33,185 nt of DNA from a virus: positions 1-33,185 of IMG/VR virus record IMGVR_UViG_3300047547_000092. One strand, 5' to 3'. The notes below the pieces were generated by a model. The model did no database searches and was not told where the DNA came from. It was given only the letters and a program-made list of their open reading frames with translations. Made by a program: the position numbers and the translations under genes. This document shows, in pieces, positions 3,688-12,261 of this stretch (its first letter is position 1; the number at the start of each line of letters is the position of its first letter).

Positions 3688-4574
3688 CAGGTCAGCCCTT
3701 CAATGTCGATTGTGAGAATTGATTGCGTAGGATAGGCAATAGAAATATCAGCCTCCCTATAAAAGCCGAACAATGCCGTACTAGCATAGTCATCGGCCCC
3801 ATACCACACAACAGGCGTGGCGCGATATGTCGCCAGCAACAACATGGTGTTGTCGATATCTGTATTATCGATCCAGACGGTGAAGCGCCCCTTACTCGAA
3901 TAGGCGCGCTCGGTGATCGAATAGTTGCCCCATGCATCGGCTGTCTTGGTCGAATAATCGACGATGCCGAGCGATGCGCCGTAGACGGTCGAGCCGATTT
4001 CCCGGTCGAGCCCAAGGATCAGATTGCCCACGCCCACCGTCGACCCTGTGCCGGTCACCGTGACCGTAACAGTCACCGCGCCATATGGCGGGATATCGGT
4101 GATGACGAGGTTCGCCTTGCGGTCAATCGGCGCAAAGAAATACTGATACCAGTCATCAATGCCGAACGATGAAACGAACGTATGGGTCTGGTTATAAACC
4201 TCGGTCGCCCCGCTTTCGACGAGGACAGTCACCTCGCTTGCGCCTGAAACATTGAGAAGCGCCACCGATGTGATCCGGCTGGTCGTATCGATCACGACAA
4301 CAATTTCGTCGGCATCGCTGGTGACGGTGCCCATCACGTTGTCGAACATCGCCCAGCGGTTTGTCGGGCCGGTGTCGAGCCACCATGCGGTTTCTGTTGC
4401 CGGGTCTTTGTTGAGATTGCCCGCTTGCAGGCTCTCGTAGATCCGGTGATTGAGCGACACGGTATCGGCCATCGCATAGGTCGTGCCGCTGTTCCACGCA
4501 GCCGGGGACGCCTCTGACACAGTGCTGCTGGTGAAGCTGGTATCGTCAACCGTGAAGGGCCGAATAATTCTCAT
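3687..4574 (-). CDS. Conserved tail-tip region protein with CBM-like N-terminal segment
   Basis: 295 aa. It begins 'MRIIRPFTVDD', followed by residues ~25-67 (AWNSGTTYAMADTV, ending in TAWWLD) that resemble the small chitin/carbohydrate-binding modules (CBM5/12-like) of phage tail proteins. The remainder is beta-rich with a conserved 'GPTNRWAMFD' and a C-terminal 'YPTQSILTIDIEGL'. From memory, proteins with this start and end are common directly after tape measure genes and are annotated as carbohydrate-binding or hypothetical tail proteins. Its position immediately after the tape measure (ATGA overlap) suggests it helps form the tail tip. The exact role is unknown. Confidence 0.6.
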   Translation of the reverse strand: MRIIRPFTVDDTSFTSSTVSEASPAAWNSGTTYAMADTVSLNHRIYESLQAGNLNKDPATETAWWLDTGPTNRWAMFDNVMGTVTSDADEIVVVIDTTSRITSVALLNVSGASEVTVLVESGATEVYNQTHTFVSSFGIDDWYQYFFAPIDRKANLVITDIPPYGAVTVTVTVTGTGSTVGVGNLILGLDREIGSTVYGASLGIVDYSTKTADAWGNYSITERAYSSKGRFTVWIDNTDIDNTMLLLATYRATPVVWYGADDYASTALFGFYREADISIAYPTQSILTIDIEGLT

Positions 4575-7500
4575 GCGGTCACCTCAGTCGGAACAGGCTG
4601 ATCAGCATCGGCGGTGATCGCCATGGCGTTGCCGCGATCCCACCGCTTTTGCAGGCGGGCGCTGTCGCCCGTGTTCTGGGCAATCGCCAGCAAGGCGGCA
4701 TTCAGATCGGCGCGCATAGCGGCCATTTCGGAGCGCAGATCGGCGTTGCTTTGGGTCACGGTGTCGCTGCTGACAATCGAGCCACCAGACACCGGCACAA
4801 TCGCCACCGGGATGGCAGGGGCAGCCTCGCCAGTCAGCGCGCTTTCGAGCGCGGCAATGGCATCATGCACCGACAGCACCGACTGATTGACTTCGATCAG
4901 GCCTGCAACCGAGCGATCGAGCGCGGCCAATTGCAGCGACTGATAATCCACCGCCGCATCGGCAGCCCCGATAGCCGTGTCGAGCGCCCGGGCGACGGCG
5001 GCAACATCGCGCTGATATTGCGTCAGGCTGGATGCGCTGGACTTGCTTGCGTCGAGGAAGGCGCGGGCAGCATCGGGCAGACCGGCAAGGCCAGCCTCGT
5101 TGCCGGTGCCTGCCAGCGCAGACGCCTTGATGAAGGCCACCTGCGCATTGCGGTATGTGTTGCCGAACGCCGCATCGCTGCCAAGGCTATTGCGGAATTC
5201 GCGCAAGGTGGCGGCGAACCCGGCAAAGCGATCATGCACATCCTTGATTGCCCCGGCCTCGCGGTCATAGGCGTCAGACAGGGCAGAGCGCGCATCGGCA
5301 ATCCGGCTGGTCGTTTCTTCCAGCGCCGCCGTATAGGCTTCCTGCGCTGCCGTCGCGTCCTCTGCGGCATAGACCTGTGCCAGCATCCCGCGAAGGCTGG
5401 CATCGGTTGCCGCCATTTCCAGAGCGCGGCGCATCGCGGTGGCTTCGGCGGTGCGGCCTTGGGCATCCAGCAAGCGCAGCGTCATGTCGTTTGTCGCGTC
5501 GGACAGCACCTTGGCGGCATCGGCGGCATCGGCCTGATGTTGTGCCAGTTCGGCATTGGCAGCGGTGGCATCCTGTGCGGCCCATACCTGCTGTTGCAGG
5601 GCGACCAGCGAGGGATCAAGTGCGGCCAGTTCCAGTTGGCGCTGTGCAGCAAGCGCGGCGCTTTCATTGCCGAGCGCCCGCATCAATTCGATTTCCAGAC
5701 CGGCGCGCTTTTCAGCCAGGGCGGCAGCGGCTTGGGCTTGCTCATTCGCCAAGCGCTGTGCTTCGGCCTGCGCATCGGCGGCGATCCGTGCGGCCTCTGC
5801 CTGTGCGTCTGCCAGCGACTTGGCGGCGGCGGCGGCATCTTCGGTCGCGTAGATTTGCAGCAACAGAGCGCGATTGGCCTCTGCCGTGGCCGCGATTTCG
5901 GCCTGCCGCTTTAGAGCGGTCGCGGCGGCGGTGTTGCCCTGCGCTTCCAGCAAGCGGATTTGCAGGTCTGCGGCTTCCTTGAGAATGTCCAGCGCATTCG
6001 ACACGCCGCCAATCGCAGCGGCAGCATCCTCTGCGGTGTAGATCATCTGCAACAGGGCGCGGTTGCTGTCGTCGGTTGCGGCAAGCTCCTGCGCTCGCTT
6101 CATCGCGGTTGCGCCCGCCGTGTCGCCAATCGCCTCCAGATAGCGGATTTCAAGGCTGGCGCGTTCCTGCGCAATGGCGGCGAGCCTGTCAGCCAGTTCC
6201 TTTGCCGTGCGGGCGGATTCATCCGCTGCATCCTTCGCCACCTTGGCGGCTTCGGCCTGCGCCGCTGCCAAGGCTTCGGCGGCGGTCTTGGCATCGGTCA
6301 ACTGATAGATCAGTTCTTTCAAGGGCCGCAGGCTGGCGTCCATCGCTTCCAGTTCGAGCTGGCGGCGGATTGCCAGAGCGCCCGCTGCATTGCCCTGCAG
6401 GTCGAGCAGGTCGGCGGTCATGCTGCGCGCCGTCTTGTCCAGTTCAAGCTGACGGGCAAGCGCCTGTGCAATGGCATCCTCGGTCTGCTTGGCGGCTTCG
6501 GCCTGCGCACGGGTTGCCTCTGCCAGCGCCTGTGCGGCGGTTGCGGCGTCCTGCGCGTCATAGACCTGCTGTTTGATGGCGCGGTTCGATGCGTCGAGCG
6601 CGGCCAGTTCATCGGCGCGGCGAGCAGCAAGAGCGCCGGAAGCATTGCCCAGCGCCTCCATAAGCTCGATTTCGATAGAGCGGCGCTGATCGGCAATCGT
6701 CTTGGCTTGGGCAAGCAGTTCGTCGGCAACGCGCTGCGCTTCGGCGGCAGCGGCTGCGGCGGCATCGGACCGCGCCTTTTCGGCGTCTGCGGCTTCCTTT
6801 GCTGCCGCTGCCGAATCCTGTAGCGCCCAGATGTTGAATTTCAGCCCGAGCAGGCTGGCATCCAGCGTAGCGACTTCATCCATGCGGCGGGCATTCAGCG
6901 CCTCTTGCGCATGGCCGGTGGCTTCCAGATATTCGATTTCGAGCGCGCGGCGTTCTTTGGCGACAGACAGCGCATAAGCGGTGGCTTCAGCGCGGGCATC
7001 AGCCAGCACCTTTTCGGCCTCGGCAGCATCATTCAGCACCCAAATCTGCTGACGGATCGCACGGTTGCTTTCGTCCATCGCGGCGAGCTGATCGGCACGC
7101 TGCGCTGCCAGAGCGCCCGCCGTGTCGCCCATGGCTGTCATCAATTCGATTTCGAGCGCCCGGCGATCCTTGGCGATGGCTGCAAGTTCCGCTGCCGACT
7201 TGCCGGTGGCTACCATCGCCTCATCCAAGCCGCCGAGATATTCGGTCACCTTCGCAAAAGCAGGCGCAACGGTCAGCAGGCGGGCGAACAGTTCCTGCCC
7301 TGCTGTGGTGTTCAGGTTCAGGCCTTGGACCACCGCCTTGAACTGGTCATTCGTGGTGACCGATGCCAGCCCGAGATTGTTCATTTCACGCTGCACAGCT
7401 TCGATCACCGGAGCCATGCGCTCGGCTTCGGTCAGGAACTTGTCCTGATAGGAGCCGATGCTTTCGATGAAGCTGTCCAGCCCGCCGAACAGGCTGATCA

Positions 7501-10192
7501 GATTCTCGCTGCCCGCGATCTTATTGGAGAAGCCGTTGCCAGAAACGTCAGCCAGAATAGAGAAGCTCTGGCCAATCGATGACAGCGCCACCTGAACGCT
7601 GGTGAAGTTCTTCACCACGCGCATAAGCGTCTGGTAAAGCCCTTCGCCCGCCTGCTGGAATTCCTCCAGACTAAGGCCGACTTGCCCCGCCTGCCACGCC
7701 AGCTTGTCGGCAAAGGCAGAGAACACCGCTTCGATCTCTGCGCCGATTTCGTCGCCTTTTAGCCCCTGCAAGCTGATCGTGATTTCGGTGTTGATTGCGT
7801 TGACGTAATCGGTAACGTCCAGCCCGAAGGTCTTGGCCGCGCCGATCACGCTGTCGCGGATATTGGCGAACACCAGCCCGATCTGGCGTTCCACACCGGC
7901 ATCCAGCGGGTTCTCGGTCGTGGTGTAGCTCGACTTTGACGACACGGTGACGCCAAGAAACTTCTTGGTCGTGGTTTCCTTGACGACATTGTAAGCCGCC
8001 GCACTGACCCCGCTGGCGACCTCTGCCAGAACACCCGTGAAAATCTTGACGCCTTGGTCAACCAGCGTGCGCGTTGTGGTCGAGCCGAACAGCGCCCCGA
8101 GAATGCCGCTGCTACCAGTCGAGCCAAGGCCAAGGCTGGTGGTCGAGAATGCGCCGCTGGAGCCAAGCCCAAGCTGCCGGGCAAGCGCATTGGTCAGGCC
8201 CGCGATGCCGTCATTGATTGACCGCAGATAATTGACCTGCGCGCTGGAGAATTCCAGATCCTTGTTGGTATTGGCCAGCATCAATTCGAGCGAATTGCCG
8301 ATGCTCTGGCTCTTGGCGCTGCTGTCGCCCAGCACAGTGCCGGTGCCCTGCGATGCCTGCATTTGCTCGGCGGTGGGGATATTTGGTGAGGCAGAACCGC
8401 CACCGCCGCTGAACCCAAGGCCAGCCATCACGCCCATCATTGCCGCGACCACCGGGAAGGCCCACGGCCCGAGCGATGCGAATATTTTGGCCGCGCCCTG
8501 CGCAACATGAATGCCGGTGCGGACAGCCGCGACAGCCGCCGCTGCCTTTTCGGCAATCTCAATGGCCTTGTAACCGGCTGACTGCTCATTAAACAGGTTC
8601 TTGGTCGCGCCGAGGATGGCCACCGTGCCATGCAGCTTGGCGTCGGAGTAGGCCCTTTCAGCCTTGGTGCGCGCCTTAATCTTGTCATCGCCGGTCAATT
8701 CTTCGGCGCGCTGCATCGCCAGCAGATATTGCGTCTGCGATTCCGCCAGCCGGTCCATCGACTTGGACATGCTTTCGATGGCCGATCCACCGCGCCCGAA
8801 CACCTCGCCCAGATCGATTGACCCGGCCAGTTCTTTCAGGCGCTCCAGTTCGTCATTGAACGCGGCCTGCTTTACCCGATAATCATGGACCGCCTCACCC
8901 GCCTTCGCGGCGGCTTCGCGCTGGTCGTCAAAGATATGGGCGCTGTCCCATTTGAAATCCAGGGTTGCCTGCTTACCCGCGTCGACCATGAGTTTGGCGG
9001 TCATGTTCACGAGGTCTTGCGCGGTTTCTTCCACCCACTTGAGCATGGCCTTTTGGTAAGCCTCGCCAGCAGCATCGCCGCCAGCCTTGCCCGCTTTCGC
9101 GCCGCCCTTTTTGTTCTCCTCGGCAAGGCGATCCATGGCGCGCTTTTGTGCAGCGCCGGAAACGGCATCGGCAAAACCGCCGATATAGTCTGTCTTGAAT
9201 GCGCTGGTGAAAGCCGTGGCAGCGGCATTGCCCAACCGCGACATTGCCCCGGCATACGGATTTTCCAGCGCGGCAACGCTGCCCAAAACGATATGCGGCA
9301 GTTTCGTGCCAAATGCCATATTGAGGCCGTCAACCAGCAAGTTGATCGGCGCAGCGGCCATCTGCACCATTTTGTTCAGCGCCGCAATGGCAAGGTTAGC
9401 CGCCGAATAGAACGCATCACCAAAGGCAGCCGGTATCTTGTCATAAGTCGCGGCGATCACCTTGGGAACGACATCGACAGCGCCGATCACAAAGTTGATT
9501 GCATTCTTGGTGTAAAGCTTGACCTTTTCCCAAACATCGCCGGTCGTGGTGCCGAAATAGGCAAACGCGGCGGTCAGCTTGTTTGAAAGATAATCGCTGA
9601 TAACGTCATAGGCACCGAGCGCGGTATCTTTCCACGTTACATGGACCTTGCTGTTCTTGTTGATTTCATCGGCCATCAGGCCAAATGCCGCCGTCGCCAG
9701 ACCGGCAGCGACAGACGCGGCCAGCAACAGCGGATGGGCAATCAGGAAGCTGCCGATCATTTTGCCGACCTGCGCCACCATGCCGCCAATGCCTACGCCC
9801 GCCTGCCCCATAATCTGGGCAATCTGCGAGCCTTGCTGCATGAACACCGTCATCGGCTTTTGGCCGCTAGTCAGGCCGATGATAACGTCGTTCAACTGGA
9901 ACGACAGGTTCTGCATCTGATAAGCCGCCAGCTTACCGCTTGCGCCCATGCCCTGCATATTCTTAGCCGCGCCCGTTGCCGTAGCGGCGGAGCGTTGCGC
10001 GGCAGCGGCCATCTCGGCGGCAGCCATGCTGGCGGTCTTAATCTGCTTGCCGCTTTGCTCGGCCTCGCGGCCCAAACCGTCCACCGCCTTTTCAGCGCGT
10101 GCGCCCGCCGCCGTCAGTTTATCAAGCTCGCTTACCGCTTGCTTGGGCTGTGTGGCGTCAACCGCTAGGACAAGGCTGGCGAGGTCTATCAT
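4571..10192 (-). CDS. Tail length tape measure protein
   Basis: 1873 aa, by far the largest gene. The N-terminus (residues 1-130) has the tape-measure pattern of Ala/Gln/Lys-rich helices followed by 'LNDVIIGLTSGQKP' and 'FMQQGSQIAQIMGQAG', typical of the prophage tail length tape measure family. Hydrophobic segments lie near residues 145-175 and 570-600, as in tape measures that interact with the host membrane at DNA entry. Residues ~1010-1617 are an array of eight related helical units (separate entry). The C-terminal ~250 residues are non-repetitive. At ~0.15 nm per residue an all-helical ruler of this length would give a tail of ~280 nm. It follows the G/T chaperones, as in lambda-type tails, with ATGA overlaps at both ends. 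Confidence 0.93.
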   Translation of the reverse strand: MIDLASLVLAVDATQPKQAVSELDKLTAAGARAEKAVDGLGREAEQSGKQIKTASMAAAEMAAAAQRSAATATGAAKNMQGMGASGKLAAYQMQNLSFQLNDVIIGLTSGQKPMTVFMQQGSQIAQIMGQAGVGIGGMVAQVGKMIGSFLIAHPLLLAASVAAGLATAAFGLMADEINKNSKVHVTWKDTALGAYDVISDYLSNKLTAAFAYFGTTTGDVWEKVKLYTKNAINFVIGAVDVVPKVIAATYDKIPAAFGDAFYSAANLAIAALNKMVQMAAAPINLLVDGLNMAFGTKLPHIVLGSVAALENPYAGAMSRLGNAAATAFTSAFKTDYIGGFADAVSGAAQKRAMDRLAEENKKGGAKAGKAGGDAAGEAYQKAMLKWVEETAQDLVNMTAKLMVDAGKQATLDFKWDSAHIFDDQREAAAKAGEAVHDYRVKQAAFNDELERLKELAGSIDLGEVFGRGGSAIESMSKSMDRLAESQTQYLLAMQRAEELTGDDKIKARTKAERAYSDAKLHGTVAILGATKNLFNEQSAGYKAIEIAEKAAAAVAAVRTGIHVAQGAAKIFASLGPWAFPVVAAMMGVMAGLGFSGGGGSASPNIPTAEQMQASQGTGTVLGDSSAKSQSIGNSLELMLANTNKDLEFSSAQVNYLRSINDGIAGLTNALARQLGLGSSGAFSTTSLGLGSTGSSGILGALFGSTTTRTLVDQGVKIFTGVLAEVASGVSAAAYNVVKETTTKKFLGVTVSSKSSYTTTENPLDAGVERQIGLVFANIRDSVIGAAKTFGLDVTDYVNAINTEITISLQGLKGDEIGAEIEAVFSAFADKLAWQAGQVGLSLEEFQQAGEGLYQTLMRVVKNFTSVQVALSSIGQSFSILADVSGNGFSNKIAGSENLISLFGGLDSFIESIGSYQDKFLTEAERMAPVIEAVQREMNNLGLASVTTNDQFKAVVQGLNLNTTAGQELFARLLTVAPAFAKVTEYLGGLDEAMVATGKSAAELAAIAKDRRALEIELMTAMGDTAGALAAQRADQLAAMDESNRAIRQQIWVLNDAAEAEKVLADARAEATAYALSVAKERRALEIEYLEATGHAQEALNARRMDEVATLDASLLGLKFNIWALQDSAAAAKEAADAEKARSDAAAAAAAEAQRVADELLAQAKTIADQRRSIEIELMEALGNASGALAARRADELAALDASNRAIKQQVYDAQDAATAAQALAEATRAQAEAAKQTEDAIAQALARQLELDKTARSMTADLLDLQGNAAGALAIRRQLELEAMDASLRPLKELIYQLTDAKTAAEALAAAQAEAAKVAKDAADESARTAKELADRLAAIAQERASLEIRYLEAIGDTAGATAMKRAQELAATDDSNRALLQMIYTAEDAAAAIGGVSNALDILKEAADLQIRLLEAQGNTAAATALKRQAEIAATAEANRALLLQIYATEDAAAAAKSLADAQAEAARIAADAQAEAQRLANEQAQAAAALAEKRAGLEIELMRALGNESAALAAQRQLELAALDPSLVALQQQVWAAQDATAANAELAQHQADAADAAKVLSDATNDMTLRLLDAQGRTAEATAMRRALEMAATDASLRGMLAQVYAAEDATAAQEAYTAALEETTSRIADARSALSDAYDREAGAIKDVHDRFAGFAATLREFRNSLGSDAAFGNTYRNAQVAFIKASALAGTGNEAGLAGLPDAARAFLDASKSSASSLTQYQRDVAAVARALDTAIGAADAAVDYQSLQLAALDRSVAGLIEVNQSVLSVHDAIAALESALTGEAAPAIPVAIVPVSGGSIVSSDTVTQSNADLRSEMAAMRADLNAALLAIAQNTGDSARLQKRWDRGNAMAITADADQPVPTEVTA
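5341..7165 (-). repeat. Eight-copy degenerate repeat array inside the tape measure gene
   Basis: Eight related units begin near residues 1010, 1081, 1170, 1255, 1344, 1407, 1496 and 1567. Each unit is a ~50-residue helical core of the form R-x-x-L-E-I-E-L-M-E-A-x-G-N followed by x-A-G-A-L-A-x-x-R and a block like ELAAxDASNRAL with QQIYxAEDA. A variable Ala/Glu-rich linker follows. Distances between units are 71, 89, 85, 89, 63, 89 and 71 residues. Copies differ at many positions, so the array is old or under selection rather than a fresh duplication. Confidence 0.85.
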
Positions 10193-10545
10193 TTGGCGGG
10201 GAGCGATGCAAGATAGGCGCTATCGGCAGAACGGATCATCGCTATTTCCCATGCCGAAAGGCGTTGTCCCGTCACCCTTTGATACCCGTCAAAGTCATTG
10301 TACGCAAGCCTTGCCGGGCCGAAACCTGTATTGCCCCGGCCCGCGTGCAGCTCTAGAAACGTACGCCAGATTGCCTCGCAATGATCGGGCAGCGGGGGAG
10401 CATCTTCTAGCTGCTTAGGCATCTTTCCCGTCTGTCGCCAAGCCGCCATTAGGTGCTCCCTCAAAGGTTCGCCGTCATCTTGTACCGCGCTTAATTCAAA
10501 TTGCGCCGCCGCGAATTCGGCAAAGTCCGCCGCGATCAATGCATA
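10189..10545 (-). CDS. Tail assembly chaperone T-like frame, predicted to be made by -1 frameshift from G
   Basis: The frame encodes 118 residues after the predicted shift point. It has no good start of its own: the only early candidate is TTG at 10539, which overlaps the G stop, and the first in-frame ATG lies ~30 codons inside. Residues near the C-terminus (RLSAWEIAMIRSADSAYL) match the short C-terminal motif common in T-type chaperone extensions. The reading frame is -1 relative to G and joins it at a canonical slippery heptamer (10545-10551). The combined product would be 136 + 118 = 254 aa. It lies directly before the tape measure gene, exactly where lambda gpGT acts on that protein. Confidence 0.78.
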   Translation of the reverse strand, partial: YALIAADFAEFAAAQFELSAVQDDGEPLREHLMAAWRQTGKMPKQLEDAPPLPDHCEAIWRTFLELHAGRGNTGFGPARLAYNDFDGYQRVTGQRLSAWEIAMIRSADSAYLASLPAK

Positions 10546-10952
10546 AAATTTTCCAAGTCGTTAATGGCTTCCGTCACCTGCTCACGCACCGGCAGGATCT
10601 GCTGATATACCTTGCGTGCGTTTTCGGCGCTGAAAGCCAATTCCTCGCCGTTCAATACGACGCCTTTCCAACCTACGGTAGCGGCGACCAGTACGTCGAT
10701 ATTCTTGGCTTCCATTTTGGCGATATCCGGCACTTCCTGCTTGCCGCGCCGGGCATTGAAGGCATCGCGGGCCATGTTCTCATTCGCCAGCGCCCGGATA
10801 CGGTCGCGGTAAATGTCGCTGTCCTTACCGACCACTTGGATAAACACACCTAGCTTTTCACGGCTGACGGGGTGTTCGATTTCAATATCCACCGGCTTGT
10901 TACAAGCGGCGATGGTGTCGATAGACGACAGGTCAAATGCATTCTTGGTCAT
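10536..10952 (-). CDS. Tail assembly chaperone G-like protein
   Basis: 138 aa from the ATG at 10952, which has the Shine-Dalgarno AGGAGAG ~7 nt upstream. An in-frame ATG 18 codons further upstream has no such site and would run into the hairpin. The protein is small and acidic-helical, with VDIEIEHPVSREKLGVFIQV near the N-terminus. The IQVVGKDSD/RDRIRALANEN region and the C-terminal REQVTEAINDLENFMH are typical of G-type tail chaperones, which coat the tape measure protein during tail assembly. It lies between the tail tube and tape measure genes, the standard place. A fraction of ribosomes is predicted to shift to T near its end. Confidence 0.8.
   Translation of the reverse strand: MTKNAFDLSSIDTIAACNKPVDIEIEHPVSREKLGVFIQVVGKDSDIYRDRIRALANENMARDAFNARRGKQEVPDIAKMEAKNIDVLVAATVGWKGVVLNGEELAFSAENARKVYQQILPVREQVTEAINDLENFMH
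10545..10551 (-). promoter_or_regulatory. Candidate -1 ribosomal frameshift slippery site (A AAT TTT)
   Basis: On the minus strand the G frame reads GAA AAT TTT ATG CAT TGA. The heptamer A-AAT-TTT fits X-XXY-YYZ: the tRNAs on AAT and TTT can re-pair with AAA and TTT after slipping one base back. The -1 frame then reads TAT GCA TTG ATC and continues straight into the T frame, bypassing the G stop three codons downstream. A GC-rich stretch that could form structure follows within ~15 nt; I have not folded it. Confidence 0.72.
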
Positions 10953-10971
10953 AGTTCTCTCTCCTAGTGTC

Positions 10972-11040: not shown

Positions 11041-12261
11041 TTAAAGCGTTGAGTCCTGAATGGTGATAATGGTCTTGTCATTGGCGAGCGCCGATGAACC
11101 GTCACCGTTAATTTCAGCCACAAAGCTATGGGTCTTGACAATCTGCTTCTTGCCGTCATCGGCATCATCGCTGAATACCTTGACCTTGCTCATTGAGAAG
11201 GTGATGAAATCGGCATCGGCGCTGGTGTCGTCCGTAACCACGACAACAATGCTGATCGGCGTTTCGCTATCGAAATAAGCGCCGATGGTTTCATCCTCGT
11301 ACAGCGCCGTGAACGAACCCGACACCTTGATATCGCCCTTGACAATATCGGTTGTCAGCTTGCTGCCGATGGTGGCTTCGCCGGGCTGAAGGCCGCCGTC
11401 AACGCTGATGGACATTGAGGTGGCAATAAGCACGCGGGTTCCGCCTACGATCACATAACCGTTAGTCGCGTTAAGCACGGCGGTGGTCGTTTCGGCGGTG
11501 GGCGAGGTCAGCGACTGCGAACCGGACTTGGTGCGGTTAAGCCCCATAAAGCCGAGGCTGATTGTAGCGTTGCCGGTAGAGGGTAGCGAAATATCGGCCT
11601 TTCCGCACTGCACGTCCGTGTAAACGGTCGAGCGGCTGATATCCGCGTTCCATTCTTCAAACGTGTAGTACAGGTTCGTATGGCCGGTAAGCGGCGGCTT
11701 GCTTTTCTTGCCCTTGATCGTGATGGTCGAGCTGGCAATCGGGCCTTCAGCCGTCAGCGCCGAACCGTTTACCACCAGCACCGTGAGCACGGTAGCAGTA
11801 ACGCCGGTCACAAGCAGGTTGTTATCCTTTGTGCCCGCCGTGTAGGTGCCCGCCGTGATGCGGATCACGTCACCAATCTTGATGCCGCCCGCGAGGAAAT
11901 CGCCCGAAGCGCGGGTAAGCGTGTAGCTGGAACCCGAACCCGCCGCGACGGTGATCGAAAGGCCGGTCAGTGCCGTAGTGGCGGTGAAGGCGTTGCGAGT
12001 GACGTTAGCGAGGAAATCCGCATAGGTTCCGCAGGACACAAGGCCCGATACCGAACCGCTGGTCTTTCCTACGCCGTAGCTGTCGCCCGTGTGCTGCATG
12101 TGTGAAGTGATTTCATTCGCGCTGAATGAAGCCTTCTCCATCTTGAAGCCGCCGGTTTCGCGGCGAAGCAACTGCCCGCCCGAACCGCTGGCGGCGGTTC
12201 CCTTTGCGCCCTGCACCTTGTACGAAAGCTGCTTGTAAACGCCTTGTGCTTGCGTGGTCAT
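11041..12261 (-). CDS. Major tail tube protein
   Basis: 406 aa. The N-terminus (residues 1-60) contains VYKQLSYKVQG and ETGGFKMEKASFSANEI, a pattern of the Phage_tube_2-like tail tube proteins. The rest is Thr/Ser/Gly-rich and beta-strand-rich, as expected for a stacked tube ring. An inserted domain around residues 100-180 (TVAAGSGSSYTL, GGIKIGDVIRITAGTYTAG) resembles the small beta modules found in some tail tubes and also appears, in related form, in the coat protein here. The start at 12261 has AAGGAG 8 nt upstream. It lies between tail terminator and chaperone genes, the standard order. It should be among the most abundant virion proteins. Confidence 0.85.
   Translation of the reverse strand: MTTQAQGVYKQLSYKVQGAKGTAASGSGGQLLRRETGGFKMEKASFSANEITSHMQHTGDSYGVGKTSGSVSGLVSCGTYADFLANVTRNAFTATTALTGLSITVAAGSGSSYTLTRASGDFLAGGIKIGDVIRITAGTYTAGTKDNNLLVTGVTATVLTVLVVNGSALTAEGPIASSTITIKGKKSKPPLTGHTNLYYTFEEWNADISRSTVYTDVQCGKADISLPSTGNATISLGFMGLNRTKSGSQSLTSPTAETTTAVLNATNGYVIVGGTRVLIATSMSISVDGGLQPGEATIGSKLTTDIVKGDIKVSGSFTALYEDETIGAYFDSETPISIVVVVTDDTSADADFITFSMSKVKVFSDDADDGKKQIVKTHSFVAEINGDGSSALANDKTIITIQDSTL

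Follow-up and report, generated by a model that had tools for sequence, protein, structure and literature searches.

Probable programmed -1 frameshifting in a viral G/T tail assembly chaperone pair and likely switches of shift direction among its relatives

The G and T frames and their neighbourhood

We analyzed the sequence IMGVR_UViG_3300047547_000092 from IMG/VR (positions 1 to 33,185), hereafter the window, in which two overlapping reading frames, G and T, occupy the region 10,189-10,952 on the minus strand, the strand that carries all features described here. Pfam and PHROG profile matches revealed the gene order tail tube, G, T, and tape measure. The tail tube protein gene (11041-12261), the upstream neighbour of G, matches PF18906 (Phage_tube_2, E 2.5e-13) and PHROG 290. 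The tape measure protein gene on the other side (4571-10192, 1873 aa) matches PF06791 (TMP_2, E 4.5e-14) and PHROG 7740 (E 5.1e-47), and its first codon, ATG 10192, shares bases with the end of T. The place between tail tube and tape measure, which the initial annotation had assigned to the pair from the letters alone, is thus borne out by the protein families on both sides. Further upstream, the protein encoded at 13487-13981 matches Pfam DnaT_2, "putative DnaT-like ssDNA binding protein" (E 6.5e-47), a name that looks misleading because the protein also matches PHROG 477, head-tail adaptor Ad1 (E 3.4e-43), and its gene sits between head and tail genes.

G (10536-10952) encodes 138 residues from ATG 10952 to TGA 10538-10536, is preceded by a Shine-Dalgarno-like AGGAG (10961-10965) 8 nt before the ATG, and matches the tail assembly chaperones of PHROG 313 (E 7.3e-17). 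T is an open frame at -1 relative to G (10189-10560) that matches PF23812, Phage_TAC_18, over residues 35-112 (E 1.3e-16, 60.9 bits at a cutoff of 27), as well as PHROG 4966 and 3817. Judged by sequence, the pair belongs to the PHROG 313/TAC_18 chaperones. PHROG 8233, a "tail assembly chaperone" profile of 271 positions, resembles G in its first half and the T of a relative (locus L064) in its second half, which indicates that some annotated proteins contain both parts. Sequence searches of the PDB with the T and G profiles returned weak, unrelated matches only, and a profile search of genome contigs with alignment A5 found no relative.

A slippery heptamer in the overlap and possible start signals of T

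The end of G reads GAC TTG GAA AAT TTT ATG CAT TGA, where the heptamer A-AAT-TTT (10545-10551) lies in X_XXY_YYZ register and forms the proposed -1 shift site. After AAATTTT, the -1 frame continues as TAT GCA TTG ATC and runs straight into T, as the initial annotation had stated. With the stop TAA 10563-10561 as its upstream bound, the T frame stays open from 10560 down to 10189; joining by a -1 shift is therefore possible only within the 22-nt overlap before the G stop, the place where the relatives also have their slippery sites. The modeled GT fusion (10189-10952, one -1 shift at 10551-10545) combines 136 residues of G (to F136) with 118 residues of T (from TAT 10545), which reproduces the predicted length of 254 residues. 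Its junction, DLENF-YALIAADF (ENF/YALIAADFAEFAAAQFEL, with the slash at the junction), aligns without gaps with those of the relatives' fusions. The predicted tryptic peptides are EQVTEAINDLENFYALIAADFAEFAAAQFELSAVQDDGEPLR for the fusion and EQVTEAINDLENFMH for the C-terminus of G.

Among the 22 clear genes of the window, in-register X_XXY_YYZ heptamers occur at 20 of 7803 codon positions (0.26%), and AAATTTT stands in register only at 10551-10545. The chance of an in-register heptamer within the overlap is P about 0.018 for about 7 placements, and the conservation in the relatives described below outweighs this figure as evidence. The initial annotation had both tRNAs re-pair after the shift. 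This applies strictly to the Phe tRNA in the A site (UUU to UUU), whereas the third-position pair of the Asn tRNA in the P site (AAU to AAA) is lost. Such a loss is normal for X_XXY_YYZ sites. RNA folding, suggested as a check in the initial annotation, gave nothing above shuffled sequences either downstream or upstream of the heptamer, with downstream minimum free energy z-scores of +0.24 to +0.54. Because stimulatory structures are absent from some G-T frameshift sequences (PMC3483164), the missing downstream structure is compatible with membership in the lambda G/GT type.

T had also been described as having neither an ATG nor a Shine-Dalgarno sequence of its own. This is only partly correct. 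TTG 10539 (10537-10539), a possible restart codon without a clear Shine-Dalgarno sequence, overlaps the G stop as TTGA (10539-10536), and an in-frame ATG (10449-10447) follows GAGGGAG (10462-10456) at a spacing of 6 nt, making up a possible internal start at 10447-10462. This ATG encodes M33 of T, and the TAC_18 match begins after it, so that a product of about 86 residues starting there would still hold the TAC_18 region. We consider such a short T as an additional product beside GT to be possible, albeit rather unlikely.

Several observations bear on whether T is translated upstream of ATG 10449. Residues 1-32 of T scored 24.5 bits against a profile of 46 relatives, a score reached by none of 5000 shuffles and not approached by any of the other open stretches in the window. 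The match became weak after removal of the LREHL block (9.5 bits, with 2 of 5000 shuffles as high). The same locus with the same frame break was found in two contigs of different metagenomes, with 100% and 99% identical proteins. One of these (L003) differs from the window at 22 positions in 764 nt; of these substitutions, 4 of the 5 in T and 16 of the 17 in G are synonymous in their own frame, and neither of the two that lie between the heptamer and ATG 10449 alters the T protein. When the T frame was followed from the overlap up to a point about 26 codons beyond the stop of G, it contained no ATG, GTG, or TTG in 49 of 107 loci with T at -1 and in 44 of 51 with T at +1, many of these loci being near copies of each other. 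A start codon near the junction is absent from Pasteurella Pmp13, PMBT14, Bhz54, the Bradyrhizobium phage, and L064. The homology of the T N-terminus, the synonymous changes, and the frequent absence of start codons together favour a fusion over independent initiation.

A separate T protein made by termination-reinitiation at TTG 10539 would fit the TTGA overlap geometry, yet many relatives conserve slippery sites at this place without any start codon near the junction, and together with the lack of a clear Shine-Dalgarno sequence before the TTG this makes reinitiation very improbable. Slightly less probable still is ATG 10449 as the only source of T, despite its Shine-Dalgarno sequence and the position of the TAC_18 match, as the T homology extends upstream of it to the shift site and most relatives do not retain it as a start. 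A frame break caused by a sequencing or assembly error, which can occur as indels in metagenomic contigs, or a join by RNA polymerase slippage, which happens on long homopolymers, is hardly credible because the break recurs in both contigs from other metagenomes, including the diverged L003, and in distant isolates, and because the runs at the junction are only A4 and T4. The folding result, the plausible ATG 10449, and the weak N-terminal match without LREHL count against the frameshift.

With these points weighed, we are highly confident that G and T form a tail assembly chaperone pair of the lambda G/GT type, with a programmed -1 frameshift producing GT. The long form is very probably made by a few ribosomes slipping back one base at A-AAT-TTT. 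The majority would translate G and stop at TGA 10538-10536, and a minority would move back one base on A-AAU-UUU, with the Asn tRNA re-pairing on AAA and the Phe tRNA on UUU in a tandem -1 slippage, and would then read UAU GCA UUG into T. We observed the frames, the register of the heptamer, the homology, the conserved site, and the colinearity with the relatives; the slip, its rate, and the roles of the proteins are inferred. By analogy with lambda, the tape measure protein would be coated by G, and tail tube subunits would be recruited through the T portion of the less abundant fusion.

The resemblance to lambda G/GT, already noted in the initial annotation, lies in the arrangement: two frames that overlap, with T at -1, stand between the tail tube and tape measure genes, an X_XXY_YYZ heptamer is found close to where G ends, and the fusion is expected as the minor product. 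The sequence family is PHROG 313/TAC_18; G has no Pfam match to lambda-type families, and the heptamer is A-AAT-TTT, whereas that of lambda is GGGAAAG. The -1 frameshift of the lambda chaperone has been described (Levin 1993; Xu 2004, 2013, 2014; reviewed in PMC5009743), and the arrangement is widespread among phages with long tails (PMC5009743, which cites Xu et al. 2004). The G:GT ratio of lambda is about 30:1 (PMC5009743), and experiments with two chaperone genes from an HK97-like cluster measured shifting of 6% and 7% (PMC3711429); by analogy, a similarly low rate is expected in the window. In Burkholderia phages KL1 and AH2, a -1 frameshift from G into T ahead of the tape measure gene has likewise been predicted (PMC3483164), although at different sites (GGGAAAC and AAAAAAG); the likeness to the window is one of arrangement.

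Shift sites and shift direction among the relatives

G and T stay together in phages of about 30% protein identity (438212, Pasteurella Pmp13, Mannheimia 1152AP2, and Limnohabitans DC31), located between the tube and tape measure or similar genes, and most relatives at this distance carry a slippery site at homologous codons. T is homologous, at -1, and accompanied by a slippery heptamer at the same codons in Pmp13 (GGGAAAC), 1152AP2 (GGGAAAG), 438212 (AAATTTC), Bradyrhizobium ppBdUSDA122-1 (AAATTTT), and Caulobacter DMCA (TTTTTTG), in which G is homologous where detected, although all five show only about 30% protein identity to the window. Among the loci in which both parts were detected, the window included, T lies at -1 in 107 of 158 and at +1 in 51 of 158. 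The -1 site types at homologous codons are A-AAT-TTY, G-GGA-AAN, T-TTT-TTN, and G-GNT-TTT; in 82 distinct -1 sequences we counted GGNTTTT 58 times, TTTTTTN 12 times, AAATTTY 6 times, and GGGAAAN 3 times. A canonical heptamer is missing from most of the marine, CRP-6-like loci (L016, L080-L159). Here the same codons show G-GNT-TTT, mostly as GGATTTT-ACG, on which perfect re-pairing would be confined to the Phe tRNA.

We modeled each fusion at its own site, chosen automatically, and aligned all of them. The junction falls in the same column as that of the window in 34 of 50 aligned fusions (counting the row of the window itself) and within one residue of it in 14 more; the automatic choice is probably wrong for Serratia Opt-155 and L099. 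Examples are VDF/YECLTGELLEYAEHQFKL in Roseobacter CRP-6, TNF/YAEDLEELIEYTRQEFKF in L064, and, with T at +1, LNF/DPSEIEEAVAFAKQEFGF in DC31, where the DNA of the junction reads CTG AAC TTT CGA TCC.

Two observations concern individual records. Pseudomonas phage PaMx28 (L014) has a G/T offset of +1 or -2 at ACTTTTTTCG (about 1905-1925 of the locus), while its close relative PaMx74 has T at -1; the PaMx28 record is perhaps missing one T, and in view of this possible sequence error it was not included in the tree. In the public records of five loci (L007, L009, L012, L075, and L078, comprising DC31, PMBT14, ZQG1, CA8, and Pmp13), T is unannotated or started late, and GT is thus absent from their annotations.

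T at +1 to G characterizes the clade of Limnohabitans DC31 and Curvibacter P26059A, which comprises 48 IMG/VR contigs in addition to the two isolates. The loci with this offset (L009, L018-L063, and L068-L071) usually have no start codon in T. Their G and T are homologous to those of the window and share the Asn-Phe codons at the junction, whereas the site is AAY-TTT-(C/T), mostly followed by CGN. In 40 distinct +1 loci, the zero-frame codons are AAC TTT (37) or AAT TTT (3), the quartet is TTTC (38) or TTTT (2), and the next codon is CGA (28), CGC (6), CGT (3), TGC (2), or CAA (1). Elsewhere in these genes, Phe is encoded by TTT 341 times versus 153 times by TTC, a comparison that provides no clean test as the loci are related. 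CGA accounts for about 10% of the Arg codons in DC31, and the Asp codon that CGA yields in the T frame could itself fix CGA. The shortest +1 overlap, ACTTTCGA before TAA, measures 8 nt and thereby pins the site. We consider a +1 frameshift at UUU_C probable in this clade. The UUU_C, mostly UUU_CGN, is shared with the +1 site UCC_UUU_CGU of influenza A PA-X, the paper on which predicted a class of UUU_C +1 sites (PMC3498833); gene and ribosome are unrelated in that case, and it has no bearing on the window, where T lies at -1.

Within the +1 clade, loci L064-L067 have T at -1 with A-AAT-TTT, the heptamer of the window itself, and their junction near 1490-1525 of each locus. They are sister to Curvibacter P26059A in the tree (100/99), and this nested -1 lineage requires at least two switches of direction; the root of the tree was not inferred, so that gain and loss of a direction look alike on it. 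It is thus likely that a single chaperone family has switched shift direction at least twice on the same Asn-Phe codon pair with the junction unmoved, for example to +1 at UUU_C in the Limnohabitans/Curvibacter clade, with a return to -1 at A-AAU-UUU in the L064 lineage. The frame offsets, the conservation of the sites, the tree, and the colinearity are what we observed; from them we infer the +1 slip on the ribosome.

Our literature search, which covered open-licence papers, returned no account of +1 shifting for the chaperones of this clade, or of a change of direction inside a single homologous chaperone pair whose junction stays in register. Frameshifting is not mentioned in the paper on the DC31 genome. 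A free choice of shift direction is itself not a new idea, as a +1 shift has been proposed for the tail chaperone of the haloarchaeal virus HSTV-2, Mu is known to use a -2 frameshift, and the direction varies among Listeria phage capsid genes (PMC5009743, PMC3498833).

Implications for annotation and for the evolution of shift direction

The pair in the window is a well-supported, ordinary case of a known class, and it is the apparent direction switch in its relatives that deserves further study. For the window, the analysis fixes the annotation as one G gene and one GT of 254 residues instead of an orphan T frame. Direction switching, if true, would mean that selection acts on the fusion and its ratio and not on the direction of the slip. 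The relatives provide a compact natural series at one homologous position, with four -1 site types and TTT-C at +1, with which one could test in what way the direction and rate of the shift change over evolution when the product is unchanged, and whether UUU_C supports +1 frameshifting on bacterial ribosomes.
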